From an uncultured Psychroserpens sp. (lineage in GTDB: Bacteria > Bacteroidota > Bacteroidia > Flavobacteriales > Flavobacteriaceae): DNA of 64,000 bases. The stretch spans positions 930,001-994,000 of the forward strand of contig NZ_CANLNS010000001.1 of assembly GCF_947492715.1 (NCBI RefSeq). Direction: 5' to 3'. The notes under the pieces are model-generated. The model was not told the DNA's origin, made no database searches, and saw nothing but the letters and a program-made list of their open reading frames with translations. Made by a program: the position numbers and the translations under genes. Shown one piece after another: positions 1 to 20,273 of this stretch (positions are counted from its first letter, which is position 1; the number at the start of each line of letters is the position of its first letter).

Positions 1-934
1 CCCTTCTACCGCTTGCTCCACCACGCTCATAATCTGAGCCAGTTCCGGGTAAAGCTGCATAAGTTTTAACTTTAGTATTGTGAGCCATTTGACCAGAATA
101 GGTATGTACCATACCTCTAATTAAGAAGCCCTTCACTTCCAATAGTGTTCTAGAAAATCGTCTGGTATTAGTAGTACTTGGTGTTCTTGATCTAAAGAAA
201 AATAAGGGGTCGTAGGCAAAATTCCTATCTGCAAATTCTTGGGTAAAGGATAGGTCAAACGTATCAGTATCTAAATGTCTTCCATAGCGTTTTGCTCTAA
301 ATTGTGGTGAACGCAATACCTTCTGAATAACTTTTTTATAAAGTCTACTTGCCGCACAACCCCAAACCCATACATAAGCATTATTTGCAAAAGCATTTTT
401 ATAATATAACCATCTTGTGAAATCCATATTAATCACATTGGTATCTTTTCTTCGCCCGTCTTTATCCCATGGATCACGTGTTCTAGATTGTGACCCATTG
501 GTCTTAAACTCGTCTCTTTCAAATGTATTGACAAGTACGGGGCCTCCCCTCCAGCCATGACCTAAAACAGAAAATTCATAAACCGTTCCTGGTTCGTTTT
601 TTCCTATGTTTTGAATATATGAATAAGCATCAGTAATAGATATCACGTTGGTGTTGGCCTGAATAAACTTTCGTTCTTCCGAATAATGTGTCGCATCATC
701 TATGGCATCAAAACTGTCATTTTCCAGAGTCCAATGTATAGCGCCATTATTTACTGTACCTTTATCTACACGTCCATGACGAACATCAAATAAAATAAAA
801 TTCACGTTAGGATCTGTGCGCCAAGCACGATGTTGTCTTATTAAAAACGCCGCTCTTCTTTTTGCAATGGTCGCAATATTAGTTCTCCCATTGTGGTATT
901 CATATCCGGCAACTAAAATCACATACTTTTTCAT
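1..934 (-). CDS. Partial protein of unknown family with a caspase-like (clan CD) His/Cys signature; C-terminus off the window
   Basis: The frame is open from the ATG at 934 to the window edge, giving about 311 residues, so the C-terminus is missing. There is no signal peptide. Seen in the sequence: a hydrophobic strand ending in His126-Gly127 (FSVLGHGW) and, about 66 residues later, a strand ending in Gly192-Cys193 (AYVWVWGCAAS). Known of the family: clan CD peptidases (caspases, metacaspases, gingipain-like) place the catalytic His before Gly and the Cys after a hydrophobic strand and Ala/Gly. Inference: a caspase-fold peptidase or a relative. The N-terminal stretch VILVAGYEYHNGRTNIATIA also resembles the first strand of an alpha/beta fold. 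It is the last visible gene of the 17-kb operon, 7 bp after the two-TM protein. The family is not recognised; the coding call is firm, the peptidase call is tentative. Confidence 0.6.
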   Translation of the reverse strand, partial: MKKYVILVAGYEYHNGRTNIATIAKRRAAFLIRQHRAWRTDPNVNFILFDVRHGRVDKGTVNNGAIHWTLENDSFDAIDDATHYSEERKFIQANTNVISITDAYSYIQNIGKNEPGTVYEFSVLGHGWRGGPVLVNTFERDEFKTNGSQSRTRDPWDKDGRRKDTNVINMDFTRWLYYKNAFANNAYVWVWGCAASRLYKKVIQKVLRSPQFRAKRYGRHLDTDTFDLSFTQEFADRNFAYDPLFFFRSRTPSTTNTRRFSRTLLEVKGFLIRGMVHTYSGQMAHNTKVKTYAALPGTGSDYERGGASGRR

Positions 935-941
935 TATATAC

Positions 942-1496
942 TTATTGATCAATAACGGGCTGTAGTTCAGATAGATTTACTTTTTTTCCCACATCTTGTT
1001 TAAGTTTATCTTTAACTGAAGCATTTACTTCCTGAACTTTGTAAGTCTTAGGCATTGTCAATTTAGAATAGTCTACATATTTAGCAATAAGTGACGTGTC
1101 TAGTGTTATAGGGCCATTAAATCTAGGCGGTCTGGGAGGTCCTACTGGACTTGGATCTTTAGCATTATCTAACTTATAAGCAAGATCATTTAACGCATAC
1201 TCATATTTAGTGAGCATCGCCATTAACTTAGACATATCTACAGTTAGGTTATTTACTTCATCATTGAGTTCTTCATTTTTATTTGCAAGAGGCAAACTAA
1301 AAAATCCAACCACAAGAGTGGATAGTATCACTAAACCCATAAACATCCAAATTGTCTTAACGGCAATCTGTCTTGGCTCTTCTCTTTTTAACTCTGTTTT
1401 CATTAAATAATAGGTAAATCCTATCATCAACAATGCAAATCCCGACACACCATAACTTAAAAGTTTGCCGCCTAACATATCTACTACATTTTCCAT
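942..1496 (-). CDS. Two-TM membrane protein with coiled coil and Pro-rich linker, unknown function
   Basis: The protein has 184 residues and no cleavable signal. Two hydrophobic segments lie at about residues 14-32 and 47-67. They are followed by a predicted coiled coil (about 70-110, including NEELNDEVNNLTVDMSKLM) and a proline-rich hinge (SPVGPPRPPRFNGP) before a polar C-terminal tail of about 55 residues. The layout suggests a membrane anchor whose tail contacts a partner on one side of the inner membrane. It sits between the last giant paralogue (4-bp gap) and the caspase-like gene (7-bp gap). Because two endolysin-like enzymes lie upstream in the same operon, a holin-like or anchoring role is conceivable, but no family is recognised. 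Confidence 0.55.
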   Translation of the reverse strand: MENVVDMLGGKLLSYGVSGFALLMIGFTYYLMKTELKREEPRQIAVKTIWMFMGLVILSTLVVGFFSLPLANKNEELNDEVNNLTVDMSKLMAMLTKYEYALNDLAYKLDNAKDPSPVGPPRPPRFNGPITLDTSLIAKYVDYSKLTMPKTYKVQEVNASVKDKLKQDVGKKVNLSELQPVIDQ

Positions 1497-1500
1497 TTTT

Positions 1501-3825
1501 TTAAGGTTTTATTGTTATTTCTTTTGTTATCACTTCTTTAAATTTTCCTTTTTCTTTGTTTCCATTTATATAGCGTTTAATAACTCTCATAAATAAGGTT
1601 CCTTCGTCTTCTACAACAAAATCTATTGGACTTGGTTCTTCTTCATTTGTGAATTCGACATCATCTAAGACTATTATAGTACCATCCTCCTTTTCTAACT
1701 TAAACTCCATTCTAACATAATCTAGATCTTCGTTTTCTAAACCTGGCCCTTCCCAAGTCACGGTTAAAGTATTATCTTGTTTTTTCACTTTAGGCTTCAA
1801 TAAGAGCGGACCTCCTTTTGTTTTACCTTCTTCTAAATGGGTTAAATCTCCCTCTTTGGTAATCGCAGTGAATTTATAGTCAACCTCGTCGCCTTTATTA
1901 AGAACAGGAATTGTAATTTCTTCAAGTGTGAATTCTGGTTGTTTTGCTCTAAATAATTGACTAAATTCAAAATCATCATTAGGAGCTTTATAATTTATTT
2001 GTAACAATATTTCTAAATAGTCCTCTGTGTTTCCTGTAATTACAGGAATGATATGTGCGTTTTTAAATTCGAAAGGGTCAGCCACTATGGCTTCTTCATC
2101 AATGAGTGCAGCTGGGTTCTGTTTAAGCGTAGGACGTCCATCTAAAAAATGAAAATGACGTTCTTCTTCTATAGTAGCTTCATCATGCGGATGGGTTCTA
2201 ATTCTCCAAACTTCTTCCTTATTTGCATCTGAAAGCGTAAGTATCTCTTGATTAATTTGTTTTCCGTTTTGATCTTTCGTTTTTATATAAATATCTACAC
2301 CACCAACTTTGGTACTGTCTATGTTTCCGTATTTAAAAGTGAATGCCTTTAAAGGAGCTAGCACTTGAGGAATAATAATTAAGTCTTGTGATGTGCTAAA
2401 AATCACCTTACTAAAAATACTTACTGGTGAGCTCATATTATCTAAGTCATCACGATACGTAAATTTCACCTGATAATAATATCCTGCTGGTTCATCTGGT
2501 TCGGTAATCCAGGCAATATTGTGTTTTTCTTGATCGTCTTTCGTTGTCGTGTAACTTATTAATGGAACAGCATCGTTTGGAATAGCAAATCCTTCCGTTT
2601 GAGATACTGCATTTTTTCCATCTTTCTTTCTCCAAATAAGAACCTCGGCACTTAATAAATCATTGGTATCGTTTTCAAAATCATGAAGCATTTTTGTTTC
2701 TAAATGTTGCTCTCTCCATAAATCCCCAAAGGTGACGGTTTGTGTATAATTTTCTAAATCATCTTTAATCTGATTTCCCATTAACCAAAGATGTGATTGC
2801 GGATTATGCGTTTTTATAGTGGCAGATCTTTGACGGTAATCCACAAATATTTTCTTGTTATGAAATAGTTTTTTTCTTTGAAATTTATAAGCTACTCCAA
2901 TCAAAATGCCATCACCTGGAGTTGGGTTTGGTGCTCCATCTGGGAGGTCTGGAATTTCTGGAGACACGTAAGGCCTGAAAAGTTCTCGCATTACTTTATC
3001 TGTAAATTCCTTTACCATGTCATCTACCATTTTTTTCATATCGGCATCTACAACTTGAGATATGATATTTACTTTTATATCTCCATCTTCTATCAGTTTT
3101 TCTTTAATGAATTCAAATTCGGCCTTTGCCGAAACCGTAAGTTCTCCATATTTTATGGCCGCGCCTGCCGCTACCATATGAGATACTTTCGTATGACATC
3201 GATCTAAATCTGCTTCTATAGTCATGTCTAAAGCAGGACGCATAGCTTTAAGTTTTAAATCGTACAGCACGCCAGCTACAGAGCTTCGGTCTCCCTTTAA
3301 GGTTGCTGCAATTAAGCTCGCTCCTTTTCTATCTAATCTCACATTAAATACAGCCTTTAGATCACTACTAGATAATGAAGGTTTTTTAGATCCAATAACA
3401 CTCTCAACAAAGGACTCTTCGTTAATTAAATCTTCATTTTCAGTAGAGGCATCTAAAACAATTAAATCTATTGAGCCATCATACCATTCTGGTGGTGTGA
3501 AAATAAAATCTTCTTGTACTTTATATTCATCTATCAGTATTTGCCTAGCCTCTTGTAAATGTCTATCATTAGCAATACACTGTACACCTAACGACATTAT
3601 TGCTCCTGCAGAATCTTCTAGTTCTTCAAGTCCGCCTTTAATTGCTCTACCTTCTTTAAATATTTGCAGAAAAAAGTCGTAGGCTCGTTCCTGATCTGGA
3701 TTATCTGAGATGATTGGGGCTAACCCTACTTCGCTAGGTAAAAAGTATATAATATTTTCTTGCTCATGATCTCCATAGAACAAGATGTTTTTATATGTAC
3801 CATATGGTTTTGATAAATCTAACAT
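1501..3825 (-). CDS. Giant beta-rich operon paralogue (774 aa), unknown function
   Basis: This is a member of the paralogous set in this operon. The N-terminus carries the shared domain: a segment ending in ENIIYFLPSEVGLAPI (about residues 24-39), then WYDGSIDLIVLDAS (about 114-127), KKPSLSSSDLKAVFNVRL (about 147-164) and a YDL strand (about 188). A helical stretch at about 245-295 ends in MRELFRPY, where the paralogues have a similar LFxP motif. The C-terminal 400 residues look like successive Ig/FN3-like beta-sandwich units and end with the shared strand KTKGGPLLLKPK and a last domain containing LTVTWEGPG. There is no signal peptide or TM segment. The stop lies 4 bp before the membrane-protein gene and the start 2 bp after the previous paralogue, so co-translation is likely. 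Confidence 0.6.
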   Translation of the reverse strand: MLDLSKPYGTYKNILFYGDHEQENIIYFLPSEVGLAPIISDNPDQERAYDFFLQIFKEGRAIKGGLEELEDSAGAIMSLGVQCIANDRHLQEARQILIDEYKVQEDFIFTPPEWYDGSIDLIVLDASTENEDLINEESFVESVIGSKKPSLSSSDLKAVFNVRLDRKGASLIAATLKGDRSSVAGVLYDLKLKAMRPALDMTIEADLDRCHTKVSHMVAAGAAIKYGELTVSAKAEFEFIKEKLIEDGDIKVNIISQVVDADMKKMVDDMVKEFTDKVMRELFRPYVSPEIPDLPDGAPNPTPGDGILIGVAYKFQRKKLFHNKKIFVDYRQRSATIKTHNPQSHLWLMGNQIKDDLENYTQTVTFGDLWREQHLETKMLHDFENDTNDLLSAEVLIWRKKDGKNAVSQTEGFAIPNDAVPLISYTTTKDDQEKHNIAWITEPDEPAGYYYQVKFTYRDDLDNMSSPVSIFSKVIFSTSQDLIIIPQVLAPLKAFTFKYGNIDSTKVGGVDIYIKTKDQNGKQINQEILTLSDANKEEVWRIRTHPHDEATIEEERHFHFLDGRPTLKQNPAALIDEEAIVADPFEFKNAHIIPVITGNTEDYLEILLQINYKAPNDDFEFSQLFRAKQPEFTLEEITIPVLNKGDEVDYKFTAITKEGDLTHLEEGKTKGGPLLLKPKVKKQDNTLTVTWEGPGLENEDLDYVRMEFKLEKEDGTIIVLDDVEFTNEEEPSPIDFVVEDEGTLFMRVIKRYINGNKEKGKFKEVITKEITIKP

Positions 3826-3827
3826 AA

Positions 3828-6074
3828 TTACCAGATGTTTTCAGGAATGGTTATTTCTATTTGCTCAGAACTAGAGGTCTTCCAGTTTGATTTGTAACGG
3901 TCTCCGCTTTCACTTTTTACCTTTAATCTATACTTGTAATCAGTTGCAGAAGCGTCAATCATGTCATGAGTAAATGTGATGATATCTCCAACAGCATTAA
4001 ATTCTAACTTCTTAGAATCGTCTGAACTCATTTTAATGTTGTTCTCCTCGTCTTCGTACATTATTGTAAGACGAACTTCTTTAATCTCATAGTCTTCAAA
4101 GCTGGGCGCCTCAATGAGCTTTGCTTTTATTGTACGCTCAGGTTTAACGTTATCCTTTATCATTAAAATTGGTCCGTTATGTGCTTTCCAAGCACCTCTC
4201 CTAATTGTACCATCAACTGTAATTTCTGTAGCCTTATATTCTAAAACCTCTTTTGGAGTATCAAGACTTGTGACAACCGCCAAGCTATGTGTATTAAGGT
4301 CTTTAGTGAAATTAAACTTCTCTTGAATCCAAGTTTTTCTAGTATGCTCCCAAATACGGATTTCGGTAATTATCTTTGAAGTTTTTTCCCAATCAACTTT
4401 GCTCATTAATTCTACAGACCACTTATTTTCAAAGGGGTTAGGAATAAAGAAATTAAAGTCCTGATGATCATCTAAGTCTAAAACATATTCTTGAGATCCT
4501 TCGATGTAATAGATAATTTGCAGATCTATTTTAACGGGATGCAACTTACTATAAAGGAGTGATAATAGTTTTTGGTCTTTATCATCTTCCTTTAGTAAAA
4601 ACGACTGGCTCAAAATCTTTTTGTCAGTATCACGTTCTTTAACATGTATTGTACTTTCAATAAGGTGTGTGTTTTTAAAGATGGATGTATCATCTATTCC
4701 TATTTGAAGTTTTATATTTTCGAAATATTCGGTAGGATTAAAATATATAAACTCTGATGTTGTTTCCTTCCAATCTACTTCCATCTGAGCAGGCAAACCT
4801 GTTCCTTCATTATCTAAGTAAATTGTAGTTTTATAACTGTATTTATAGGTATTTGCATGCTGCCTTGTATACTTAAAAGTTCCTTTTACTAGTTCGGATT
4901 TATTAAATATAAAGGTGTGCTCATTTTCTTTTTCATTATTGGTTTCATCCCAAACAACACAATCTATTTTAACGGTTTTGATATTATCAATTTTAAACGT
5001 GTCCACTGCAATATCTACTGTTACAGTTTCAGTTCTAAATGGCATCTTATCTAACTTAATCCATTTAAGTCTATCTCCTAATCCTCCAACGTTTTCAATC
5101 ATACTAGATAGCAAAGCTTGAGGGTAAAATGGATACTTTTTAACCTTGCGTTCTCTAAGATCTACAATGAGTTCATTAGTTTGAACCTCATCGTTGTTTC
5201 TTAAAATGTAGTGTGACCCAGGAATGATTGAAGAATGAATCATACCCACAGCATGAGCTAATCGGTTTTCTATTTTTTTACTCGCACTCAATGGTGGCAC
5301 CGAAGGTTTAAACAAGCGTTTAATTGCTTCTGTTTTTAATTCATTTAATAATGTTTTTGAAGCATATTCTGTAACGTCTGGATCGAGTTCTTCAATTTCC
5401 ATTTCAACCAAACTGGTTTCTTTCAAATCGTCTAGAGTATTGCTAATTTCTTCTCTAAAGAATATGAGGTTCTTGACTTTCATATCTTCAAAGTGCTTGT
5501 AAATACGTTCCCATTTAATACGCATTCGCGCTTTAAATGTAGGAGCTATTCCGAGCATATTCAGTTCATAATACACGTGTCCTGCTACCACATCTTCATT
5601 CAAAGCAGAGACGAGTCGCTTAGCCTCTTCTCCAGATGTTTTAACAACTAATGCTGCTCTATTGTCACCAAATATTGATGGCGAAATTCCAGAACTCACA
5701 TACCAGTCTTTTGGGTCAGGTTCTTCTCCAGCCGATGCCAAAACCATATAAACTTTCCCATCTGTTACTGTTGCTGGAATAAGGCGTTTAGCATCCATTC
5801 CCCACTTTTCTTTAATTTGGAGTTTTGCGGTTTCTAAAATTTGCTCTGAGGCTTTTAAGGAAACTTCTAAAGATAAGCTCGTATCCATGACCTGATTAAT
5901 CTCTTGGTCTGTACTACTTTCTGGCAAAATTGTATATGCCGAAATTGCTGGTCCTTCTGCTTTTTCAACGATACAAGGCTGTATATTAACATAATAGAAT
6001 GTTTCAGAGTCTCTATCATCTCTAAAAATTGTGAGATTCCCCACGTCCATAAATGGTGGCTGATAACTTAACAT
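3828..6074 (-). CDS. Giant beta-rich operon paralogue (748 aa), unknown function
   Basis: Same architecture as its neighbours. The N-terminal strand IFRDDRDSETFYYVNIQP (about residues 16-33) corresponds to the D-x-N-x-FY-x-LP segment of the other copies. It is followed by TDGKVYMVLAS (about 105-115), SPSIFGDNRAALVVK (about 131-145) and a YELNMLG strand. An acidic helical region (about 205-255) ends at RLFKPSVPP. The C-terminal half contains repeated beta-sandwich-like blocks of the form V-x-V-Y-x-D followed by Y-K-Y and ends near AHNGPILMIKD plus one more unit. No signal peptide or TM helix is visible, and no catalytic motif is recognised. A structural or binding role is an inference from beta-richness only. 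Confidence 0.6.
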   Translation of the reverse strand: MLSYQPPFMDVGNLTIFRDDRDSETFYYVNIQPCIVEKAEGPAISAYTILPESSTDQEINQVMDTSLSLEVSLKASEQILETAKLQIKEKWGMDAKRLIPATVTDGKVYMVLASAGEEPDPKDWYVSSGISPSIFGDNRAALVVKTSGEEAKRLVSALNEDVVAGHVYYELNMLGIAPTFKARMRIKWERIYKHFEDMKVKNLIFFREEISNTLDDLKETSLVEMEIEELDPDVTEYASKTLLNELKTEAIKRLFKPSVPPLSASKKIENRLAHAVGMIHSSIIPGSHYILRNNDEVQTNELIVDLRERKVKKYPFYPQALLSSMIENVGGLGDRLKWIKLDKMPFRTETVTVDIAVDTFKIDNIKTVKIDCVVWDETNNEKENEHTFIFNKSELVKGTFKYTRQHANTYKYSYKTTIYLDNEGTGLPAQMEVDWKETTSEFIYFNPTEYFENIKLQIGIDDTSIFKNTHLIESTIHVKERDTDKKILSQSFLLKEDDKDQKLLSLLYSKLHPVKIDLQIIYYIEGSQEYVLDLDDHQDFNFFIPNPFENKWSVELMSKVDWEKTSKIITEIRIWEHTRKTWIQEKFNFTKDLNTHSLAVVTSLDTPKEVLEYKATEITVDGTIRRGAWKAHNGPILMIKDNVKPERTIKAKLIEAPSFEDYEIKEVRLTIMYEDEENNIKMSSDDSKKLEFNAVGDIITFTHDMIDASATDYKYRLKVKSESGDRYKSNWKTSSSEQIEITIPENIW

Positions 6075-6078
6075 GATA

Positions 6079-8358
6079 CTATGGATTTACGTCTTTAATG
6101 ATTAAAAATTTGCCTTTCCCTTCAAGGTTTTCAACTTCTATTTGATCTCCTTGTTCTGGATATAAAGTCAATGAATAATTGTACGAATCATGTCCTTCAT
6201 CAATTCTAGGAATAAACCAATTTAGTGGCTTTTGAGCGCTTTCTGAGTTAAGAAAAAATTGATGTCTTATATCTTGAGTCCCATTTTTGTAAGCCATTTC
6301 AAGGACAACATTCTGGTACTTTTCACCAATTTTTAATCGACTCACATCAATCCCAACTTGTAAAATAGGAAGTATTAATGTTTGATCTCCTGAACTATCA
6401 ACCCAACCACTTTTCGAAAATAAATTATCTCCTACAAGTTTATAGCGATATCTAAATTCTTGCATATCTCTATCTAATTGAACTAATTTAGCCGTTACTG
6501 GTTCCCAATCATCCTCGGCAGCAAGCTCCACTTTATCTTCACTTGTAAATTGATTGTTTTCATCTTTATACTGAAACTCTACAATGATTTTTTTCAAGCT
6601 CTGATCTGGCGACATTCCTAACTCGACATCTACTTCTAGGGTGTCTTCGTATGGATTTGGTGTAAATATATCTCCAGGTTGGTTTTGGGTGAAATAGTAT
6701 TTTTGAGATGGCATTTCTATGACTTTCCCATTTTTACTGAAATAGGTTACGGTATATTCTATAGGCGCATCAATATGCTTATAGATAGCACGCTCTAGTT
6801 TTTTGCCATCAACCTCTTCTGGTGTAAACAACAACGTTGTTTTAAAATGATCTGAATCGCTTTCATTTTTATAATTAATATCCACTTGAATATTAATTAC
6901 TTTATTATCTCCAGATAGTGAGTTTAACGTTGAATGTGGCTTAAAATTAGCAACCATCAATCCTACTTTTCCAACTTCAATATTTATTAATCCGTTGGTC
7001 TCTTTTACTGGTATAACTAGTGGCTCTGAAACCCCTTTAAAATACACCTCTGAGGTGTATTTTACGACGGCATCGTCTTTTTTAGGTCGTCTAAACAGCC
7101 ATTTATTTTTAGTGGTATTTTTATCAAACAACCACGATTTTGATTCTTCAGCCGAAGGATACTCCGATATTACTTTTACTGACGATACGAATGGTGCTTC
7201 TTCCCATGGCGCATTTACTTGTAATGGGATTTCAACGGTTCCAACAATATCATCTGCCAAATCAACCACCTTAGTAATATTCTTTTTGTTAGCTTCAGAA
7301 ACACCTTCTAAAAAGTTCATAATCGTTGCTTGAGGTGCCATTTTCCATTCCACCACATCACGCTGAGTAAAACGAAGTTCAACAAACGATTTTACCTCTT
7401 CCTTCATCAGTTCAATCATAGAGGTTTTGCGTTCCTCCTGAGTCATACCATGAATTCGAGATTTAATAATTTCTTTTACTTTTTCTTCGATTAGTTTAAT
7501 GGCCATATCTCTCAACTCACTTACATGCTCGTCTGATATTTCGGTAGAACCTTTTTTAATTTCAATATTCAAAAGCCCTTCTTCTGTCATTGTTTCTACA
7601 ACACTTGAAACATCTATACGTTCTACATCTGCATCTGAACAACCTTGATCTTGATTTTTCCAAACGCGGTCTACTTTTCTATCAATTTGTGATGTTTGCG
7701 TAGATCCTGCCCAAGCTCTTATTTCTAAACTTGGTAAGCGTAGTCTAAACTTTAAATCGTATCGCGTACTTATAGCCTTATCGCCTTGCTGCAATGCTTT
7801 ATACCAAACAGCTGCTCCGTCTGGACTTAAACGAATGGCAAAGGCAGCATTATTATCGCCAATTAAACTTGCTGGTCCTCCTGCAGATGACCAAGACACC
7901 AAACCACCTTCTTTCTCTTCAAGAAGTGTCACAGTACCATCGGTATACTCTAAAGCCCCAAACGTAATTTCTCCTACTCGAGGCACATCTGGCTCAGGGA
8001 CTCTATCCTCGCCTCTGGCCCGAGCAATTAAGCCCAAACGTTCTTTTTCTAATTTTACAATTTCACGTCGGCGTTGTTGTTGTATTTTCATACTTTTCAA
8101 CTTTGCTGCCGCTTTTCTTTTTTCCTCTTCGGAAATCCCTAGGTTAATATCAAAATTGATATATCCTCCAGCTAAGCCTGCTGTAGAATTATCTGCACCA
8201 TCTGCTTTATCTGTCCAAAACAGGCCATTAAAAATAGGCATATCACCATCCATTCTAATCTGTGGTGTTGAACGCGCTAGGTAAAACATATTTGGGTTCT
8301 CATCGTCTGGATATGCAATGATATCGTCGAGTACTGTTATTTGTGGTAAAGTTGTCAT
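6079..8358 (-). CDS. Giant beta-rich operon paralogue (759 aa), unknown function
   Basis: The N-terminal shared domain reads IIAYPDDENPNMFYLARSTP (about residues 13-32). Its ARSTP also occurs in the 850-residue copy (ALRSTP), suggesting these two are closer relatives. A charged helix (about 80-125, rich in K/R/E) interrupts the domain before YTDGTVTLLEE, GDNNAAFAIRLSPDGAA and RYDLKFRLRLP. A second helical block, including EEKVKEIIKSRIHG, precedes the C-terminal beta-rich repeats; the protein ends at GKGKFLIIKDVNP, matching the GG-x-L-x-L strand near the end of the other copies. There is no export signal. It is followed after 4 bp by the next paralogue. Confidence 0.6.
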   Translation of the reverse strand: MTTLPQITVLDDIIAYPDDENPNMFYLARSTPQIRMDGDMPIFNGLFWTDKADGADNSTAGLAGGYINFDINLGISEEEKRKAAAKLKSMKIQQQRRREIVKLEKERLGLIARARGEDRVPEPDVPRVGEITFGALEYTDGTVTLLEEKEGGLVSWSSAGGPASLIGDNNAAFAIRLSPDGAAVWYKALQQGDKAISTRYDLKFRLRLPSLEIRAWAGSTQTSQIDRKVDRVWKNQDQGCSDADVERIDVSSVVETMTEEGLLNIEIKKGSTEISDEHVSELRDMAIKLIEEKVKEIIKSRIHGMTQEERKTSMIELMKEEVKSFVELRFTQRDVVEWKMAPQATIMNFLEGVSEANKKNITKVVDLADDIVGTVEIPLQVNAPWEEAPFVSSVKVISEYPSAEESKSWLFDKNTTKNKWLFRRPKKDDAVVKYTSEVYFKGVSEPLVIPVKETNGLINIEVGKVGLMVANFKPHSTLNSLSGDNKVINIQVDINYKNESDSDHFKTTLLFTPEEVDGKKLERAIYKHIDAPIEYTVTYFSKNGKVIEMPSQKYYFTQNQPGDIFTPNPYEDTLEVDVELGMSPDQSLKKIIVEFQYKDENNQFTSEDKVELAAEDDWEPVTAKLVQLDRDMQEFRYRYKLVGDNLFSKSGWVDSSGDQTLILPILQVGIDVSRLKIGEKYQNVVLEMAYKNGTQDIRHQFFLNSESAQKPLNWFIPRIDEGHDSYNYSLTLYPEQGDQIEVENLEGKGKFLIIKDVNP

Positions 8359-8381
8359 ATCTAATGTTTTTTGTTTATCGT

Positions 8382-10508: not shown

Positions 10509-10563
10509 GAATTAAATTTTTATATGATTATTAGGCGATGATCTCTTATAATTAAGCAAAGAC

Positions 10564-13116
10564 CTATTGAGGTGTTACAATTGGATCTTCTGTACCTGGC
10601 TCAACTGGTGGCAATGGATCTTCAATAGGCTCATCGCTGCCTTCTGGGTCTTCTAAAATGAGAATGCCTCCTTTTGTTTTTTCCATAGGTATATCCACTA
10701 CCTTTCCATCTCCAGCATACTTTAACGTACATTCGAATTCATTTCCTCCAGGATGAAAAGACAGAATCTCAAATGTTTTTAGAAAGTCGCTTTGATCTAA
10801 GCGGATGGTATCCTGCTTTTCGTAGTTATTGTTGGTATCCTTATAGCTTACTGTAGCGTAAACCATTTTCCATTTGGTCCAATCTAACAAGCCTCCATCA
10901 ATAGTTAGTGCTTGTCTGTGACGTTTAAGATCTATTGGCGGAATATCCTCATCACTTTTGGCTACTTCCCAATCTGATGTCACGACCAAACCATCTACAT
11001 ATTGTACAAAGTGACGATACTTAAAAGAATTTGTAGCGCCTTCACGAAGTCGCATACTCCAATCCCAAGTTTCTGAACCTGTAAACCATTTTGAAAATTC
11101 TTCTGTAATGACATTTGCTTTATCTTCATAGATGATTTCAACTTTTGCCGTAGTTACAGAATTAGTATCCATTAACACATCAAAAGAGGCTTTTGCTCTT
11201 CCCACGAGATCATCATCAATTGATAATACTTCTCTCGTGTCTTCTATGTAATCTGATTCGCTTTGCGTACCATCTAAATAGATCCATTTTTTCTTGTAGC
11301 GATATGATTTATCTTCATGACCATACATAAAACATTTCCACGTATCTGAAAGAGACTCTTGGTTTAAACGAATTTGCTTCTTTGAATCTGGCTTGTTAGG
11401 CTCAGCTTTGTATTCCATGTCAACAACAACTTCTTTAACCATTGTCCAATCGATATCACCGGCAGTCACCTGAGTTGTTATAAACCCTAACTTATCGTAA
11501 GACACATTAAGAACACGATCACTAATATTATTAAGCTGTATTGGTGGTGGTGCATCGGCAGTTCCTTTATATGATATTTTGGCTTCAGCATTGTAAAAAT
11601 CAACTAATTCTCCCTTTGCATTTCTAGCCATACTTACTCTAAAAGTGAAAACTTCTTCCCCTGTTTCGAACAAGAATGACTTTGCATTTTGGCGTACAAT
11701 CCCAGATTTATGATCCTTTTGTTTGTAGTTCACATTTACAATAACAGAGTCTATATTATCTAGAACGAAATCGGCATTCACTTTTACCTGAACCTCAAGC
11801 ATTTGTACTTCTGGACTACTTACATCGATATATCGAACAGCTGCTTTACGTTCACTTTCTGTAAGCTGAACAGACAATGTTCCATTAGGGTATCTTAAAA
11901 ACTCAACAACTCCATTTTTCTTAAAATGAAAATTGATATCAGATACACTAGTTTTTTTAATATCATTTCTAAAATAGTAGTAATGGTCTTGATTCTTAAC
12001 TCTTTTATCTCTATGAGTTAGCTTTAAATCAGAATCTGGTTGTATGCTCGTACCAGTTGATGCACCCTCTTCTCCTTCATCTTCATCCTTACTATCTCCT
12101 ATAAATGCGGTTTCAAAAAATGATTTAATTATGGTCCCAAAGATGAGTTCCATTAAAGACTTTCTTAAGTTATCTTCTACTTCTTTTTTCTCGGCACTAT
12201 TAGATGCCATATCTCCATAATCGGTTATTTCAATTCTAACAACTTTTCTATCAATCATTTGCTCTACTAACGAATTGATATCTTCTTTATCAACATCAAC
12301 CTTATGATCATAGGTTGTTGTTTTTTTAGAGTACGTCACACCTAAAAACTTCTTAGTTTTTGTTCTTTTTCCTTGTTGAATGTGTTTTTTATAAGTTTCT
12401 TTTTGGGTTTGTAAAAACTCATATATTTGAGTTCCTTTAGCCCTAACTTTTACTTCAAGATTTGGAATATGAGCATACCCCTTTAAATCGTATCTAACAA
12501 TTGCCTGAATGGGTGTTTTTTCATCAGTTCCTTTTTTTGTTTTAAATCCTTTTGAAAGCGCATCAAACATGAGTTGGGCACCTTCCACACCAAATGTGGC
12601 ATACACTGCAGCCGAGTTAGAGGCTGTTAAGGATGGTTTAACTTCAGAGCTAGAACTTTTTTTGAATGTATCACCAAGCCCTTCCAATATTTCTAATCTT
12701 ACTGTTCCGTCTTTCCAAGTTCCTGGATAGGTTAAAATAGGTTCAATTTTCCTTGTTGGCACTGCTCTTTTGTAACGTTTATGATAGCGACGAACGAACG
12801 CATGCGATTTTTGATTTAATATCTTTTTTAAGTAAGTCGTTGCAATTTTATGCTCCTCTTTAGACAAGGATAAATCGACTGTAACCAGTAACTGTCCTAA
12901 TTGGGTTTCAACGAGTTCTTTATTGGAGCTACTTGCGTAGGCTATATCTGCATTTCTTGAGAAAAAGTTATAACTCAAAGCAGGTTTTCCATCTTGATCT
13001 CTTGCCACAACTGGTGTGGATCTTAAAGCATAAAATATATTGTCTTTTTTATGATCTCTAAATATTTCTACGTCTGGGAGTCCTGGAACTCCAATTTTAT
13101 CTAATAATGAAAGCAT
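10564..13116 (-). CDS. Giant beta-rich operon paralogue (850 aa) with Ig-like repeats
   Basis: The N-terminal domain has VEIFRDHKKDNIFYALRSTP (about residues 16-35), WKDGTVRLEILEG, KPSLTASNSAAVYATFGVEGA and RYDLKGYAHIP. A Lys-rich insert (about 245-275) and a helical block (about 285-340, LMELIFGTIIKSFF) follow. The C-terminal half shows the clearest repeats: about four units of 90-100 residues with a V-x-V-x-Y strand (VVVDMEYKAEP, KVEIIYEDK, YATVSYKDTN), a polar loop, an aromatic Y-R-Y/F-K-Y strand and a Y-x-DG turn. The last unit ends in EKTKGGILILEDPEG and a Pro/Glu-rich tail. The repeats suggest Ig-like folds used for binding or stacking, which is an inference. No signal peptide or enzyme motif is visible. 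Confidence 0.6.
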   Translation of the reverse strand: MLSLLDKIGVPGLPDVEIFRDHKKDNIFYALRSTPVVARDQDGKPALSYNFFSRNADIAYASSSNKELVETQLGQLLVTVDLSLSKEEHKIATTYLKKILNQKSHAFVRRYHKRYKRAVPTRKIEPILTYPGTWKDGTVRLEILEGLGDTFKKSSSSEVKPSLTASNSAAVYATFGVEGAQLMFDALSKGFKTKKGTDEKTPIQAIVRYDLKGYAHIPNLEVKVRAKGTQIYEFLQTQKETYKKHIQQGKRTKTKKFLGVTYSKKTTTYDHKVDVDKEDINSLVEQMIDRKVVRIEITDYGDMASNSAEKKEVEDNLRKSLMELIFGTIIKSFFETAFIGDSKDEDEGEEGASTGTSIQPDSDLKLTHRDKRVKNQDHYYYFRNDIKKTSVSDINFHFKKNGVVEFLRYPNGTLSVQLTESERKAAVRYIDVSSPEVQMLEVQVKVNADFVLDNIDSVIVNVNYKQKDHKSGIVRQNAKSFLFETGEEVFTFRVSMARNAKGELVDFYNAEAKISYKGTADAPPPIQLNNISDRVLNVSYDKLGFITTQVTAGDIDWTMVKEVVVDMEYKAEPNKPDSKKQIRLNQESLSDTWKCFMYGHEDKSYRYKKKWIYLDGTQSESDYIEDTREVLSIDDDLVGRAKASFDVLMDTNSVTTAKVEIIYEDKANVITEEFSKWFTGSETWDWSMRLREGATNSFKYRHFVQYVDGLVVTSDWEVAKSDEDIPPIDLKRHRQALTIDGGLLDWTKWKMVYATVSYKDTNNNYEKQDTIRLDQSDFLKTFEILSFHPGGNEFECTLKYAGDGKVVDIPMEKTKGGILILEDPEGSDEPIEDPLPPVEPGTEDPIVTPQ

Positions 13117-13148
13117 GATATTGTGTGTTTATTTGTTATTCGTTTTAT

Positions 13149-15851
13149 TTAATTCACAGTTGTTATTGGCAACATGAGTTGTGGTGTATTTGGAGGTATA
13201 GCATAGCTTTGCTCTTCTTGTGATCCATCTTTGGCAAAAATGCGAACGGCTGCTGTAAGTGCTACTGTAACTGGTAAATCTGGTATAATAGCAATATCTT
13301 CTACCTTACTCGAGTTTAAAAACAACACTGTATTACCTGGGTGAGATGGATCTGTACTACTTAAGTTAATTTCTATTGCAGCTAGACGTCCAGCAAAAGT
13401 GGCTTGACCTAATAAAGTAGCAACTTTTAAAGTCCTAAATCCGCTATTATCTAAATTAATGAAGGGTTGTTCTGTATCGTAATTAATCCAGTTACCTTCA
13501 AGTAATCTACCATCATTAAGTATAAATCGGCTTCGTCCTCTCCATTGTCTCGGATCTGATTCTTCTACTAAAACAGCAAAGGACTTGGTTGGAATTTCTG
13601 GTGTAAGACTAAGCGTTGTTTCTTTCTCTTCAGAATCGGCTGTAGTATATTTAATATCTACCAATGTTTGTCTCACTAAGTTATTACTACTAGCTAAGTT
13701 TGGTGTGATATTGAATATTCTTGCAAATGGTCTATCAACCACAACTTGAGAGTCTTTTATATTCTCTTCTTCAAAAACCAGTTTTTCATCTTTAAAGAAA
13801 AACTCTTGTTTTAAGTAATAATCGTATTGATTCTCCTCTGGAGGGTGAATTAAATAGCGTTTCATTTCGGCATTTGCGCTATTTAATATTGTGGTTCTTC
13901 CATTTGCTGATTTGGAAGGCGCTAAAAAGACTTGAACCGAACGAATACCATCATCACTAAACTGTAATTCACCAGCTTGAATCTCAACGGGAATTAATGG
14001 AGAATGTGTATCCATATTGATACTTAAGGCACGATCTGTTTCGTCTTCAAAAAGCTGAGATGTGATTTTAGTTTCTGGACTTCCAATAATAGATCCTGTA
14101 TTATGAATAAATTCTACTTGATAATCATAAGACAATGTTCCATGGTCATCAACAAAGAATTTTATTTTATCACTCAAGTTATTTTGATCTAGAGTAATAC
14201 TGTGTTCGTGCACACGTTGTGACTTGTCTCCTTTATTGCCTTTATATCCGTAAGAAATATGTACAATGGCTTCTCGAACATCATATTCTTCAAAATCAAA
14301 ACTTGCTCTAACTTCTAATTCTATTTCTTTAAATGGTCCTTCATTTAGACGAGTTATCATTAATTGTTTATCTGCATCAAAAGCAGTACCTGCCAATGTT
14401 AATGCTCCGTTAGGATGATATTTAATCACTTTGGCTTCGGCCTTATCAAATGTGAACTTTCTTTTTATTTGTTGTGAAATTTCACGTCTTCTCAGTGTAT
14501 ATCCAACATTAATATCGACATCTAACGCTGAAGATGTTTCTTCTTCTTCCGGGTTTTCATCTTCTCCAGATTCTCCTCCAGACTCACCTCCATTGGGAGT
14601 CTCATCTTCTGAAGGTACCGTAACGCTATTGTCAGGCGGATCAGTGTCTCCACCCGTTTCATTGTCACCTCCAGAGTCTTCTCCCTCTCCTGTTTCAGCT
14701 TCTCCTTCTGGACGATCATTATCAGAGTTTGTTCCATCTACGCTTTCTTCTCCATTACCTTCTGTGGTATCATCGTCTTCCCCAGAACCTTCTTCGTCTG
14801 TTTCTTCTCCTGCTTCTTCATCGGTCTCATCATCTTCCATGTCTTCTTCCTCTTCTCCTGATTCTTCTCCATTTCCTCCATCTTCATCTTCTTCCTCATT
14901 ATGTAATGGTGGATCGTCATGATCTTCATCTTCACCATCGGCATCCTCCTCTTCATCTCTAACTCTATTTGCTATAGTCTCATTGATTGCAGAACTATAG
15001 TCCTCAGTAGGGATTGCTGTAGCTTGAAATAGTGTTGGTCCCATTAATTTTTTCACCAACTCAATTCCAGTTGGGTCATTTCCTAAAAGATTGGTTTCAG
15101 ACTCTCCTTCGGCATAAACAACTTGCTTCACTGTAATCGCTCCATCACTCATTAATTCTCTAATCATAACATCAATATCTGCACTTGCAGCAATATTGAT
15201 ATTATCATTTTTAACTCCTGCTCTTAAGTTAAATGAATGGTTCCAGAAATCTTCGGTGGCTTTAAAATCCACCGTAATTTCTAAGTTATAGGCCTTCATT
15301 ACACCTAAATAGCTAAGGTCATAAACGACAGCCACCTGTGTTTGTCCTTCTTGCTTGAGTAAATTCCACATAATCTGAGCTGGTTTATTACTCAATCGTG
15401 TAGAAAACACTGCTGTTTGCCTAAGTCCCAAAGATGGCTTTGTTGAACCAGCAATAGTAACTTTAAAGTCTTCTGTATTGGCTTCTTGACTTCCGTCTGA
15501 ACTGAAAACTACAAGTTTGACATCACCATCTTTAAATGGCACCATTGACAGATTTACACCATCTCCATATTTGGATTTAAGTTCATCTTTTATAGATTCA
15601 AACTTTTCTTCTGTAGGTCCTAATTCAACTTGAAGCGTTAAAAACCCACCTACACGAGATTCATCGTTATCAAAATTGGGGTCGTCGCCTTCAATAATTT
15701 CATCGTCTGTATAAACCACATATTGAACCGCTCGTCCATTATCTGCAATTTTTGCTTTTTCTTCTGGGAGGCAGTAAAAATTATTTGGATCTGTATAATC
15801 TTGATAGATAATACATCCTTGAATGACTTCTTGTTTTTCTGTACTTAACAT
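13149..15851 (-). CDS. Giant operon paralogue (900 aa) with a long acidic linker
   Basis: The shared N-terminal domain includes IIYQDYTDPNNFYCLPEE (about residues 14-31), FKDGDVKLVVFSSDG (106-120), STKPSLGLRQTAVFSTRLS (136-154) and VYDLSYLGV (176-184). Residues about 298-440 are an extreme Asp/Glu/Ser/Gly linker with almost no basic residues, which the other copies lack. The beta-rich C-terminal half follows, starting at DVDINVGYTLRRREISQ, with Ig-like units. Acidic linkers often bind calcium or keep domains apart, but neither is shown here. It is the first of the giant genes, 32 bp after the peptidoglycan-binding protein. The opposite strand across the linker has long Ser-rich open frames; these are codon artefacts. 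Confidence 0.6.
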   Translation of the reverse strand: MLSTEKQEVIQGCIIYQDYTDPNNFYCLPEEKAKIADNGRAVQYVVYTDDEIIEGDDPNFDNDESRVGGFLTLQVELGPTEEKFESIKDELKSKYGDGVNLSMVPFKDGDVKLVVFSSDGSQEANTEDFKVTIAGSTKPSLGLRQTAVFSTRLSNKPAQIMWNLLKQEGQTQVAVVYDLSYLGVMKAYNLEITVDFKATEDFWNHSFNLRAGVKNDNINIAASADIDVMIRELMSDGAITVKQVVYAEGESETNLLGNDPTGIELVKKLMGPTLFQATAIPTEDYSSAINETIANRVRDEEEDADGEDEDHDDPPLHNEEEDEDGGNGEESGEEEEDMEDDETDEEAGEETDEEGSGEDDDTTEGNGEESVDGTNSDNDRPEGEAETGEGEDSGGDNETGGDTDPPDNSVTVPSEDETPNGGESGGESGEDENPEEEETSSALDVDINVGYTLRRREISQQIKRKFTFDKAEAKVIKYHPNGALTLAGTAFDADKQLMITRLNEGPFKEIELEVRASFDFEEYDVREAIVHISYGYKGNKGDKSQRVHEHSITLDQNNLSDKIKFFVDDHGTLSYDYQVEFIHNTGSIIGSPETKITSQLFEDETDRALSINMDTHSPLIPVEIQAGELQFSDDGIRSVQVFLAPSKSANGRTTILNSANAEMKRYLIHPPEENQYDYYLKQEFFFKDEKLVFEEENIKDSQVVVDRPFARIFNITPNLASSNNLVRQTLVDIKYTTADSEEKETTLSLTPEIPTKSFAVLVEESDPRQWRGRSRFILNDGRLLEGNWINYDTEQPFINLDNSGFRTLKVATLLGQATFAGRLAAIEINLSSTDPSHPGNTVLFLNSSKVEDIAIIPDLPVTVALTAAVRIFAKDGSQEEQSYAIPPNTPQLMLPITTVN
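14532..14960 (-). repeat. Low-complexity acidic tract inside the 900-aa protein
   Basis: About 143 codons, mostly GAA/GAT/GAG with Ser, Gly, Thr and Pro, encode residues about 298-440. On the plus strand it reads as a TTC/TCA/TCT-rich, pyrimidine-biased stretch. Imperfect short units such as GEESGEEEEDME and GGESGGESGEDENPEEEE recur, which suggests growth by slippage. Confidence 0.7.
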
Positions 15852-15883
15852 AATTCTTATTTTTTATACATTTATATATGGTC

Positions 15884-16945
15884 CTATATTGGCACACCTA
15901 AACTTCTGAAGGTGTTCTCTCCAGCACATCCATAGGCATTTCCATTAAAATTGTCTTTTTGAAATTTGATGAGTGCTTGCCCAGTTCCTCGACCAAAATC
16001 GCCATCAATTGAGCCCGAATAATATGGGTTTCCGGTACTTGCGCTTCGGGTAGCTGCCAAACCACGTTGAAGGCGCTCTACCATGCTTCCGGTTGATCCA
16101 TATCTCACTTTAATTAATGATGATTCTGATGCATTTGCCTTAGCAGCGTTATAGACATCTATACTATTTAAAAGAAGGTACTTGAAGGTGTTTTGATTTT
16201 CGGCTATATCGTCATAAACATTGCTAATGAATTTGTCCCAAGCATTCCAATTTCCGTTAGATTGACCACTAGGAATATATTGAGGAGGACAACCTGTAAT
16301 AACTTGACAACCGTAACTGCTGTAGTAATCAGACAAGCAAAAAGATGTCGAATAACTGTTTCCTCTTATGGATCTAACACGTGTTGTACTTGGATTATTT
16401 CTGGCACAATGGATATTATCTCCTGGGTTTCCTATTGAAATAGCAGCCGATGCACCATAATTGATAACAGGTTGCCCAGCGCTCATTGTATAGTTGGCAC
16501 GTCTAAGCGTTATTGAACTATTTAAGCGCAAAGCTCTGTGTTGTTGAAAGCCCGAACTACTTCTTGGATGTTGTCCTTTTATATAATCATAGAAACCTGG
16601 TTGCATACAATTAAATTGATGCATGCGTTTTCTGTTGCGTTCTACAAGTTTGAGATTTGGTACTGTACTAGATAAAAACACGGCCACTTTTCTTTGCGAA
16701 GGCAACCATTGCCCTATAAGACATCTTGGGTAGTAATAATTAATATTAACCCGTTGTAATAAATGACTTTCTTCAAACTGCATGTGCCCAGAGTAATCTA
16801 ATAACGATTCGTTTGGCGCAGCAGGCAAAGCTCCTCTTATTCCAAAAAGGATCATTTCATCTTCTCTGTTCTCTAAGGATATATTATTAAATTCGAAAGC
16901 CCTTCTTAAAACGGCGTCTGATATTCTAAAAGTTTGTGCTGACAT
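15884..16945 (-). CDS. Peptidoglycan-binding-domain protein with possible L,D-transpeptidase-like His/Cys pair
   Basis: The protein has 353 residues and no signal peptide. The C-terminal 75 residues (about 278-353) look like a PG_binding_1 repeat domain: LIKVRYGSTGSMVERLQRGL, then GSIDGDFGRGTGQALIKFQK. In the middle, DNIHCARN (His179) and SSYGCQVITG (Cys213) recall the His and Ser-x-Gly-Cys pair of YkuD-like enzymes and some phage endolysin domains; this is inference, because the spacing and surroundings were judged by eye. The N-terminal 150 residues are unrecognised. The start ATG is 3 bp after the stop of the amidase gene, so the two peptidoglycan-directed genes are probably co-translated. 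A cell-wall-binding or cleaving role is likely; the lack of an export signal is odd for such a protein. Confidence 0.6.
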   Translation of the reverse strand: MSAQTFRISDAVLRRAFEFNNISLENREDEMILFGIRGALPAAPNESLLDYSGHMQFEESHLLQRVNINYYYPRCLIGQWLPSQRKVAVFLSSTVPNLKLVERNRKRMHQFNCMQPGFYDYIKGQHPRSSSGFQQHRALRLNSSITLRRANYTMSAGQPVINYGASAAISIGNPGDNIHCARNNPSTTRVRSIRGNSYSTSFCLSDYYSSYGCQVITGCPPQYIPSGQSNGNWNAWDKFISNVYDDIAENQNTFKYLLLNSIDVYNAAKANASESSLIKVRYGSTGSMVERLQRGLAATRSASTGNPYYSGSIDGDFGRGTGQALIKFQKDNFNGNAYGCAGENTFRSLGVPI

Positions 16946-16948
16946 ATC

Positions 16949-17614
16949 TTAAATTTTAGATAATTGTTTAATCATTTCTTTTTGCGTGGCCTTATTGAAA
17001 ACACCGTTTATAGCAACACCAACTGTAGACTGAAATATTTTAAGAGCAGCTTCAGTTTTTGGTCCAAAAATGCCGTCAGATGTTCCTGGTTGACATCCAC
17101 AAAGTTTTAAGGCATCCTGAAGTTCTACTACTTCAATTCCTGTATCTCCTCTTCTTAAAACTTTTGTGCTTATTTTTTTATTTTTCAGCGGTCTAAGTCG
17201 TCTAAAACCTAGCAATTGGCTTGAAGCATATGCTGTTTCTCCAACTTGATTGTTTTGGTTTCCTCCTAGTGTATAAATTCGGGTATGATCTTGAGAATAC
17301 CCCATAAAAACTCCAACATGGCCCTTATAAGACTCTGGGCTTTCTCTCCAAAAAATAACAACATCTCCTGGCTCTGGATTCACTACTGGAATACCAACGT
17401 TTAACCATGATCTAGCGTTACCAAGGTCTGAAGATTCTACCTTAGCTTTTTTTGCAACCCAATTCATAAAAAAACTGCACCAAGGTGTTTCGTCATCGTT
17501 CACGTAACTGAAACCCGCTTCTTTAGCATAGTTTACAATTTTTTGATTATGCTGAGGCCCGGGAATTTCTCTAGTTCCTATTTCTCTTGAAGCAATATGT
17601 ATTAATGAGCTCAT
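16949..17614 (-). CDS. CHAP/NlpC-P60-like amidase (TIGR02594-type) with C-terminal peptidoglycan-binding domain
   Basis: The protein has 221 residues. The N-terminal catalytic domain (about 1-140) has the Cys in DETPWCSFFMNWVA (Cys46), the His in YKGHVGVFMGY (His99) and the PEPGDVVIFWR strand, which together mark the TIGR02594 group of Cys/His peptidoglycan hydrolases. The C-terminal PG_binding_1 domain (about 152-218) reads LRRGDTGIEVVELQDALKL and SDGIFGPKTEAALKIFQ. It should cut cell-wall peptide links. There is no signal peptide, as in many phage endolysins, so it needs another route to the wall. It is the second gene of the long operon, 11 bp after the small first gene. Confidence 0.82.
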   Translation of the reverse strand: MSSLIHIASREIGTREIPGPQHNQKIVNYAKEAGFSYVNDDETPWCSFFMNWVAKKAKVESSDLGNARSWLNVGIPVVNPEPGDVVIFWRESPESYKGHVGVFMGYSQDHTRIYTLGGNQNNQVGETAYASSQLLGFRRLRPLKNKKISTKVLRRGDTGIEVVELQDALKLCGCQPGTSDGIFGPKTEAALKIFQSTVGVAINGVFNKATQKEMIKQLSKI

Positions 17615-17625
17615 GATATTTATTT

Positions 17626-17919
17626 TTAAATGTCGTTATTACTAAAGCTTCCGCTTTCATCAAAAAACAAATCCGCTTCTTGATTCAATAGAGATAAAAT
17701 CGAAGGCAATAATGAAAGTGGATATCTTACGGTTAAAAAACCTCCTCTATTGATAAAAGCTTTTGATATTGCCTCATTAGACTCTGACATTGAAAAGTCA
17801 ATATTCCCTATCGCTTTTTTATTGTTCTCAAAACCAAAAAGCCTGATGTTAGCGTTTGAATTAGAAATTCGTATTGAATAGTGGCTAATTTTTGCTGGAT
17901 AACTTGTTAATGTTGACAT
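17626..17919 (-). CDS. Small protein of unknown function (97 aa), first gene of the 17-kb operon
   Basis: A short soluble protein with no signal peptide, TM segment or Cys motif. It has a beta-rich N-terminal half (ISHYSIRISNSNANIRLFGF) and an amphipathic segment in the C-terminal half (RYPLSLLPSILSLLNQEADL). The family is not recognised. Its coding status rests on its position 11 bp before the amidase gene, on the same strand as ten more genes, and on ordinary flavobacterial codon use. It could be a regulator, a chaperone or a small structural subunit; nothing in the sequence decides. Confidence 0.5.
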   Translation of the reverse strand: MSTLTSYPAKISHYSIRISNSNANIRLFGFENNKKAIGNIDFSMSESNEAISKAFINRGGFLTVRYPLSLLPSILSLLNQEADLFFDESGSFSNNDI

Positions 17920-18059
17920 TACATTTATTGTTTTATTGTTAACTTTTCTAGTGAATATAAATGCGTTTTAACCGCACTTATATTAGACTATAAAAATAGT
18001 AATAGAACAAGTTATAATGAGAACACAAACAACTGTTTTACAGTCGGTTATATCCTGTT

Positions 18060-18095
18060 TTTAAAAAAACAAAACCCCCTTTAAGGTATAAGGGG
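18060..18095 (-). terminator. Second of two tandem terminator-like hairpins
   Basis: Read on the minus strand, CCCCTT and AAGGGG (plus-strand 18076-18081 and 18090-18095) form a 6-bp stem with an 8-nt loop, followed by a T-rich run (GTTTTGTTTTTTT). It lies after the response-regulator gene and before the long operon. Confidence 0.5.
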
Positions 18096-18110
18096 ATTTC
18101 CTGTAGTGGA

Positions 18111-18143
18111 AAAAAATAAAACCCTAGAAATTAGGGTTTTTTT
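18111..18143 (-). terminator. Rho-independent terminator after the response-regulator gene
   Basis: AAAACCCTA (18118-18126) pairs with TAGGGTTTT (18132-18140) around a 5-nt loop, with T-rich sequence on both sides, so it can work in both directions. It lies about 95 bp after the response-regulator stop. Confidence 0.75.
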
Positions 18144-18234
18144 AGATTTAAGTTAAAGGCTAAAAATAGAGAATACCTTTGTGTATTTCAGCTCTAACTA
18201 GAAAAGTAAAATATATGTGATTGGTAAAATATTG

Positions 18235-18876
18235 TTAGAGATTGACAATTTTATTTTTAATAGCGTAAAGCACCAGCCCTATTTTATTTTTAATATTCAA
18301 TTTTTGAAATAAGGTATCTCGATAACCATCAATAGTTTTTGGGCTCAAAAACATCTTTTCGGCAATTTCTTTGTAGGTTAATTCAGAACAAACAAGTTTT
18401 ATAAATTCTATTTCTCGGTCTTTTAATCGACCTTCGGATGGTGTATCATCATTTAAAGAATTGATTAAAATGTTCGCAACATTTTTTGTGTGGTAATACC
18501 CTGTATGAATAACTTCTTTTAGTGCGGTTTCTAGAACTTCTTTTTCTACATCTTTTAAAAGATATCCTTTAGCTCCAGCTTTGAGCATTTTAATGATGGT
18601 TTCGTCATTTCCTTCTACCGACAGGGCAATAACATTGATCTGAGGGTATTCTTTTTTAATAATTTCTGTAGTTTCGATACCATTCAAAATTGGCATATTT
18701 ACATCCATTAATACAATTTCGGGAACATTTTGAGGTGTTTTGAGATAGGTTAAGAGTTCTTTTCCATTTTTGCAGAGATAGGGCACCTTAAAATTATCAA
18801 AAGAATTCACTAACCCTGCAATTGCCTGAGACAATAAAATATGATCTTCTACGACTACAACTTTATGCGTTTTCAT
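18235..18876 (-). CDS. LuxR/NarL-family response regulator
   Basis: The protein has 213 residues. The receiver domain (about 1-120) has acidic VVVVEDH near residue 10, phospho-acceptor Asp58 in IVLMDVNMP, and a conserved Lys in GYLLKDVE. The C-terminal LuxR-type helix-turn-helix (about 148-213) has LKDREIEFIKLVCS, YKEIAEKMFLSPKTIDGYR and LFQKLNIKNKIGL. It is the output partner of the DesK/NarX-like kinase gene 3 bp upstream, and binds DNA as a dimer after phosphorylation. Target genes are not known; G-rich inverted repeats upstream of this operon are possible sites. Family assignment is secure. Confidence 0.93.
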   Translation of the reverse strand: MKTHKVVVVEDHILLSQAIAGLVNSFDNFKVPYLCKNGKELLTYLKTPQNVPEIVLMDVNMPILNGIETTEIIKKEYPQINVIALSVEGNDETIIKMLKAGAKGYLLKDVEKEVLETALKEVIHTGYYHTKNVANILINSLNDDTPSEGRLKDREIEFIKLVCSELTYKEIAEKMFLSPKTIDGYRDTLFQKLNIKNKIGLVLYAIKNKIVNL

Positions 18877-18879
18877 GGG

Positions 18880-20270: not shown

Positions 20271-20273
20271 TTT

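Follow-up and report, generated by a model that had tools for sequence, protein, structure and literature searches.

A conserved flavobacterial operon joining paralogous giant proteins, a clan CD-fold peptidase and peptidoglycan-binding proteins

What is the function of an operon-like set of eleven genes, six of them encoding very large proteins, that resembles no familiar system? The set fills positions 1 to 17919 of a 64,000-nucleotide stretch of DNA (the window) from an uncultured Psychroserpens sp. Eight of its genes are a real conserved unit, a single block that encodes five paralogous giant proteins, a sixth large protein (G708), a protease of the clan CD fold, and one peptidoglycan-binding protein. 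Because distant bacteria also have much of the set, it has the look of a molecular machine not yet described. We tentatively read it as a multisubunit, protease-licensed, cell wall-directed effector machine of the conflict or regulated-lysis kind. If this is true, it would represent a new class of such machines.

Layout and conservation of the operon

A first-pass annotation had described eleven minus-strand genes spaced by 2 to 55 bp, which both the list of open reading frames (ORFs) and the sequence left of position 1 confirm. From upstream to downstream, the genes are as follows.

17626..17919, minus strand: 97-aa protein, first gene of the set; left out of the family-library scans
16949..17614, minus strand: 221-aa CHAP (TIGR02594-type) and PG_binding_1 protein, from library matches
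15884..16945, minus strand: 353-aa protein (PGB353), N-terminal His/Cys domain and C-terminal PG_binding_1, from matches and alignment
13149..15851, minus strand: giant G900 (900 aa) with an acidic low-complexity insert, from paralogue comparison
10564..13116, minus strand: giant G850 (850 aa), closest paralogue of G759, from paralogue comparison
8382..10508, minus strand: G708 (708 aa), large, outside the paralogue family, from paralogue comparison
6079..8358, minus strand: giant G759 (759 aa), paralogue family, from homologues and a structure model
3828..6074, minus strand: giant G748 (748 aa), paralogue family, from paralogue and locus comparison
1501..3825, minus strand: giant G774 (774 aa), paralogue family, from paralogue and locus comparison
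942..1496, minus strand: 184-aa membrane protein, from hydropathy and locus comparison
2..934, continuing left of the window, minus strand: clan CD-fold (clostripain/legumain/caspase-like) peptidase, 362 aa, from alignment and model

Successive spacings are 11, 3, 32, 32, 55, 23, 4, 2, 4, and 7 bp, and a single transcript for all eleven genes is plausible. The protease gene is the last; the window edge cuts its ORF to 317 codons from a TTG, and the sequence left of position 1, whose inspection had been proposed, completes it at 362 aa from an ATG at 934, with a stop ~155 bp beyond the edge (G000:C1:929846-930000). The next two genes downstream lie on the opposite strand.

The suggestion that these genes travel together across genomes proved correct. 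A scan of GTDB contigs found 13 loci related to the set, and all nine that span it (L007 to L012, L014, L017, and L018, with the L011 protease in two ORFs) keep PGB353-G900-G850-G708-G759-G748-G774-protease in the same order on one strand. Two further loci, cut by contig ends, are colinear as far as they reach (4/4 genes in L013; 7/7 core genes in L015, where G900 is cut). The acidobacterial L016 is rearranged (G900 and G774 on the minus strand, G759 and G748 on the plus), with an adjoining S8 protease gene, and the 13th locus (L019, Nakamurella) has a second operon type, described below. Across the window's own genome and eight loci, the pairwise distances for one core gene correlate with those for another at 0.73 to 0.99; these values were calculated with no species-tree control, and joint transfer and plain descent fit them alike.

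Relatives of the giants occur in Bacteroidota, Acidobacteriota, Actinomycetota, and Pseudomonadota. A protein search with G759 returned at least 106 relatives and a broader alignment at least 126 (120 of them listed); because these and one further search each scored only ~8000 candidates, the counts are lower bounds. The named relatives belong to Bacteroidota, Thermoanaerobaculia, Terrimicrobiaceae, Polyangiales, actinomycetes, proteobacteria, and one Nitrospira, and all those listed in two protein searches lack a precomputed Pfam domain. Distribution is patchy: counting the window's own genome each time, matches occur in 2 of 23 genomes of the genus, 8 of 397 of the family (six of the eight full length), and 2 of 395 of the phylum, while two actinomycete samples gave 3/246 and 1/296. 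A cultured strain, Psychroserpens algicola Dm15, also has the set.

Protein composition and its bearing on function

The proposal that the last gene encodes a clan CD peptidase is supported. Its structure model (predicted local distance difference test score, 95.5) has the caspase-like alpha/beta fold of that clan, and clan CD peptidases fill all 50 of the rows shown by a structure search. His126 and Cys193 are invariant in 48/48 aligned homologues and follow strands 3 and 4 of the model (118-124 and 182-190), respectively. These results support a clan CD-fold peptidase, with proteolysis itself predicted. Placement of His and Cys and the predicted fold are as in C11 (clostripain/iotapain), C13 (legumain), and C14 (caspases); unlike known members of the clan, the window protein has, between the two residues, a long insert containing an RDPxDKDGRxKD motif. 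Sequence comparison did not reach these families. A Pfam scan of the 48 homologues matched no peptidase family, including PF00656 (Peptidase_C14), PDB sequence searches found no match, and neither Pfam and PHROGs (searched with the version cut by the window edge) nor NCBIfam and PADLOC gave a match above noise. An hhalign link to Peptidase_C14 was rejected as not significant (15 columns, E = 0.096); the same columns align the HG of the two proteins. Separately, the Rhodocytophaga aerolata protease is split over two overlapping ORFs (L011:16885-17972), by either a sequencing error or a broken gene.

The six large proteins had been called related, and this holds for five of them: G900, G850, G759, G748, and G774 are full-length paralogues of one family (G850 versus G759, E = 2.6e-48), while G708 is separate. 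Among the eight core genes, conservation is highest for G759 (mean pairwise identity 0.65 in nine genomes) and lowest for G708 (0.40). G900 contains an acidic low-complexity stretch at residues 285 to 440 (window 14532-14999; 46% Asp+Glu). The first-pass annotation also saw the giants as beta-rich, a claim that the model bears out and that reaches G759 only: an N-terminal alpha/beta part is predicted to lead into tandem Ig/FN3-like sandwiches at residues 373 to 749. Foldseek and VIA rows for G759 fall on these C-terminal sandwiches at TM-scores of about 0.1; the searches bear on the C-terminal half, and for the N-terminal ~345 residues no new fold is claimed. Complement C5, the top-ranked match, was rejected as a homologue, its likeness being of the FN3/Ig repeat type.

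Two products had been taken as peptidoglycan directed, and this reading is supported. One joins CHAP to PG_binding_1. The other, PGB353, joins PG_binding_1 to an N-terminal domain in which His179 and an SSxGC motif (213) are invariant in 10 rows; we take this to resemble the L,D-transpeptidase motif, a possible identity, and none of 10 family members matches Pfam YkuD. The 184-aa protein, described earlier as an anchor with two transmembrane segments, probably has two such segments and a soluble C-terminal part; two are plausible, with only one passing the 19-residue hydropathy threshold. Its gene occurs in five flavobacterial loci (L007, L008, L009, L015, and L017) and was not found in L010, L011, L012, L014, or L018.

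Ten of the eleven products, all except the 97-aa protein, were scanned against the family libraries, and the scans upheld the view of an operon-like set of unrecognised function. The giants gave nothing above noise in any of the four libraries and yet have relatives in four phyla. No phage-tail, contractile injection, or gliding set, any of which would have refuted the earlier reading, was recognised in Pfam, PHROGs, or NCBIfam; there was no sheath, tube, baseplate, or ATPase match, the only matches being to CHAP and PG-binding families, and no EAD, STAND, vWA, or MoxR domain in Pfam. These data bear on whether the operon encodes a released particle (a contractile injection system, tailocin, or gene transfer agent) with its own lysis genes. 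The CHAP protein does match tail families (phrog_1259, "baseplate hub subunit and tail lysozyme," 1.1e-28; phrog_329, 6.3e-7) as well as endolysins, and the endolysin-like genes lack signal peptides, as such a particle might have it. However, the tail matches are confined to the CHAP and PG-binding regions, the other products show nothing above noise in PHROGs, and Pfam finds no ATPase. Moreover, IMG/VR yielded no relative of G759 (78 pattern matches, 0 confirmed), and phage records yielded none of G759 or of a giant of the second operon type. We therefore consider a particle very improbable.

By a hydropathy scan, used in place of a signal peptide predictor, none of the window's ten products besides the membrane protein has an N-terminal hydrophobic segment above threshold, so the claim that the giants lack export signals stands as far as hydropathy reaches. 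Might the giants form a surface or cell envelope structure, adhesive or fibre-like, exported by an unrecognised route, anchored to peptidoglycan through the PG-binding proteins, and matured by the protease? Gingipain-like PorU matures cargo of the type IX secretion system (T9SS) and offers an analogy. The FN3/Ig-like tandem of G759, PG_binding_1 in two products, and secreted-looking relatives (below) favour this, while the missing N-terminal segments and the absence of a T9SS C-terminal domain (NCBIfam) speak against it. Such a structure is a fair contender short of being probable, and we regard it as nearly as likely as the protease-licensed machine. The same hydropathy result, with the strong conservation of G759, would suit an intracellular structural or metabolic complex in which the role of the PG-binding and protease genes is turnover or assembly, not conflict. 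We think this unlikely, since such genes recur with giants in two operon types, for which metabolism is a poor explanation. Neither proposal of the first-pass annotation, a cell envelope or contact-dependent assembly with local lysis or an intracellular complex, was borne out; signal-like N termini occur in relatives from one genome (below), but the window giants have none by hydropathy.

Divergent relatives and genomic neighbours

The second operon type is found in a genome of another Bacteroidota family (G538), where proteins of 887-603-278-737-761-742 aa are followed by two Peptidase_C14 genes. A flavobacterial metagenome-assembled genome (MAG; G369) has the same order on one contig (C224, the second caspase being cut by the fetched stretch and matched by profile only) and the first operon type on another (C169). 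Its CHAP-PG_binding gene lies 44 bp before the first giant and is 74% identical over 137 residues to that of the window. Three type-II giants correspond to Nakamurella giants (37 to 39% identity over 714 to 745 columns), and three type-II proteins in the protease-like position match Pfam Peptidase_C14. In an actinomycete (G859), a gene resembling a giant (46 bits) and a 1009-aa gene with no match lie upstream of one that fuses Peptidase_C14 (3e-23) to PG_binding_1 (2.9e-17). Taken together, these operons place giants alongside a protease and wall-binding parts in more than one lineage. This company is not universal: the Pararhizobium cluster has eight ORFs with no Pfam match, and those of Nakamurella and G1055 have no protease match in Pfam.

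Relatives in one genome look secreted. Six of six consecutive ORFs in G400 (L044:2901-14531 on contig C2) have signal-like N termini by hydropathy, three of them matching giant profiles, and G400 possibly holds a secreted version of the giants. The middle part of a Nakamurella giant (L019:14364-17258) has, by eye and unaligned, a Lys/Asp/Pro-rich stretch and an OmpA-like stretch, the latter with no Pfam match. The G400 ORFs and the OmpA-like stretch favour a surface structure. Following the actinobacterial giants are proteins of 353 and 312 aa that were not recognised, and the Nakamurella and Paracoccus clusters have a protein that looks terpene cyclase-like by eye only; none has a Pfam match (L019:17219-19107, L059:8595-9533, and L040:31995-33491).

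The neighbourhood of several giant relatives is of the conflict kind. On a Paracoccus plasmid, a run of EAD1-trypsin, EAD1, and AAA_16 ATPase genes stops 129 bp short of the giants, among which lies a PLD-like gene; EAD1 passes its cutoff, and STAND and NACHT models fall below theirs. A Bacillus_HBL-family protein is encoded two genes from a giant on an Azospirillum plasmid, and a PG_binding_1-GH19 protein follows the protease in Dyadobacter. On an Ensifer adhaerens Casida A plasmid (L079:9053-24815), a protease homologue without giants, accompanied by a small membrane protein and a 992-aa protein, is flanked on one side by DrmA/DrmB (DISARM) and on the other by a weakly ThsA-like and LmuB-like set; a related LmuB-like gene (33% identity) lies ~3 kb from the G859 cluster on the opposite strand. 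The protease and large-protein pair recurs on a Tsukamurella plasmid (L080), the large proteins being 34.6% identical over 602 columns, and the Ensifer group is a possible undescribed defence module.

Around the window operon itself, two upstream features were noted.

17920..18234, minus strand: intergenic leader, 315 bp, with two terminator-like hairpins (18140-18118 and 18100-18071)
18235..20969, minus strand: four-gene block (response regulator, histidine kinase, membrane protein, lipoprotein, by eye)

The leader parts the operon from the response regulator gene. Because the scan gave 12 terminator-like sites against 9.6 (standard deviation 3.0) in shuffled sequence, the hairpins alone prove nothing; promoter-like sites were fewer than in shuffles (49 versus 67.8) and are not used as evidence, and an Rfam search of positions 1 to 22000 found no match. 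Both the window genome and G005 have the four-gene block next to the operon, and a 64% identical relative of the response regulator (18235-18876) occurs in G008 (G008:C4:329522-330154), which lacks G759. The block is a candidate regulator only.

Left of the window (L003:6861-17832, equivalent to G000:C1:918861-929832) lies a cassette of ECF sigma and TPR, S8 protease, and TPR-CHAT genes, named by eye except for TPR, which matched a library. The TPR-CHAT protein has HG and SAC motifs, and two large proteins in this stretch share long near-identical segments. Cassette genes lie downstream of the operon here and upstream in three genomes of two genera (G239, G406, and G268), an additional gene intervening in G268. 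We rejected the cassette as a part of the system: it is multicopy in flavobacteria (of 10 genomes, 9 have CHAT matches, two to nine in each), and the genomes with its nearest relatives, G001 and G008, both lack G759. The association is suggestive only.

Proposed mechanism and comparison with known systems

In the protease-licensed machine that we tentatively favour, a signal would act through an upstream regulator to turn the operon on. The giants would form one heteromeric cytosolic complex, each paralogue in its own place, with N-terminal domains joined and FN3-like tails projecting outward. Cleavage of at least one subunit by the protease, with the acidic linker of G900 as a candidate site, might activate the complex. 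The CHAP and Cys/His peptidoglycan-binding proteins, aided by the two-segment membrane protein, would then open the wall, whereupon the complex may lyse the producing cell or leave it. A bolder version, which we hold to be a long shot, is an execution machine with no known counterpart, in which a five-giant heteromer, a caspase-fold switch, and peptidoglycan enzymes would break the envelope, perhaps in several phyla and with proteases and effectors that can replace one another.

Several observations weigh against the protease-licensed machine. The anatomy is observed, and from it we infer assembly, cleavage, location, and outcome alike. PADLOC has no family match for the ten products (best E = 0.018), viral and phage collections yielded no relative, and profile comparison fails to join the window protease to Peptidase_C14. 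The secreted-looking G400 relatives favour an extracellular role. G369 is a MAG of 360 contigs with 4% contamination, so its two operons are possibly not from one cell. Conflict-type neighbours are single cases, untallied against random neighbours, and thus clues by association; the Paracoccus EAD1 genes may be a separate unit.

In the open-access PubMed Central literature we found no description of this operon, which is not to claim its absence from print. Contractile injection systems and phage tails share with it a CHAP endolysin-like gene and a large operon, but their sheath, tube, and ATPase have no matches here. In EAD-centred, nucleoside triphosphate-dependent conflict systems, the parts consulted of one account describe proteases and peptidoglycan-attacking effectors as recurrent, and the word "giant" is absent from that text as consulted (PMC7159879); EAD1-trypsin and EAD1 genes directly precede the Paracoccus giants. 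A survey of prokaryotic caspase homologues, consulted in part, lists a putative peptidoglycan-binding domain in 11 sequences and Amidase_2 in 4; the portion consulted describes no multigene set with giants (PMC3501461). The G859 fusion resembles the peptidoglycan-binding homologues reported there, and the giants, being recurrently accompanied by caspase-fold proteases and peptidoglycan binding, are a testable candidate target for some bacterial caspase homologues.
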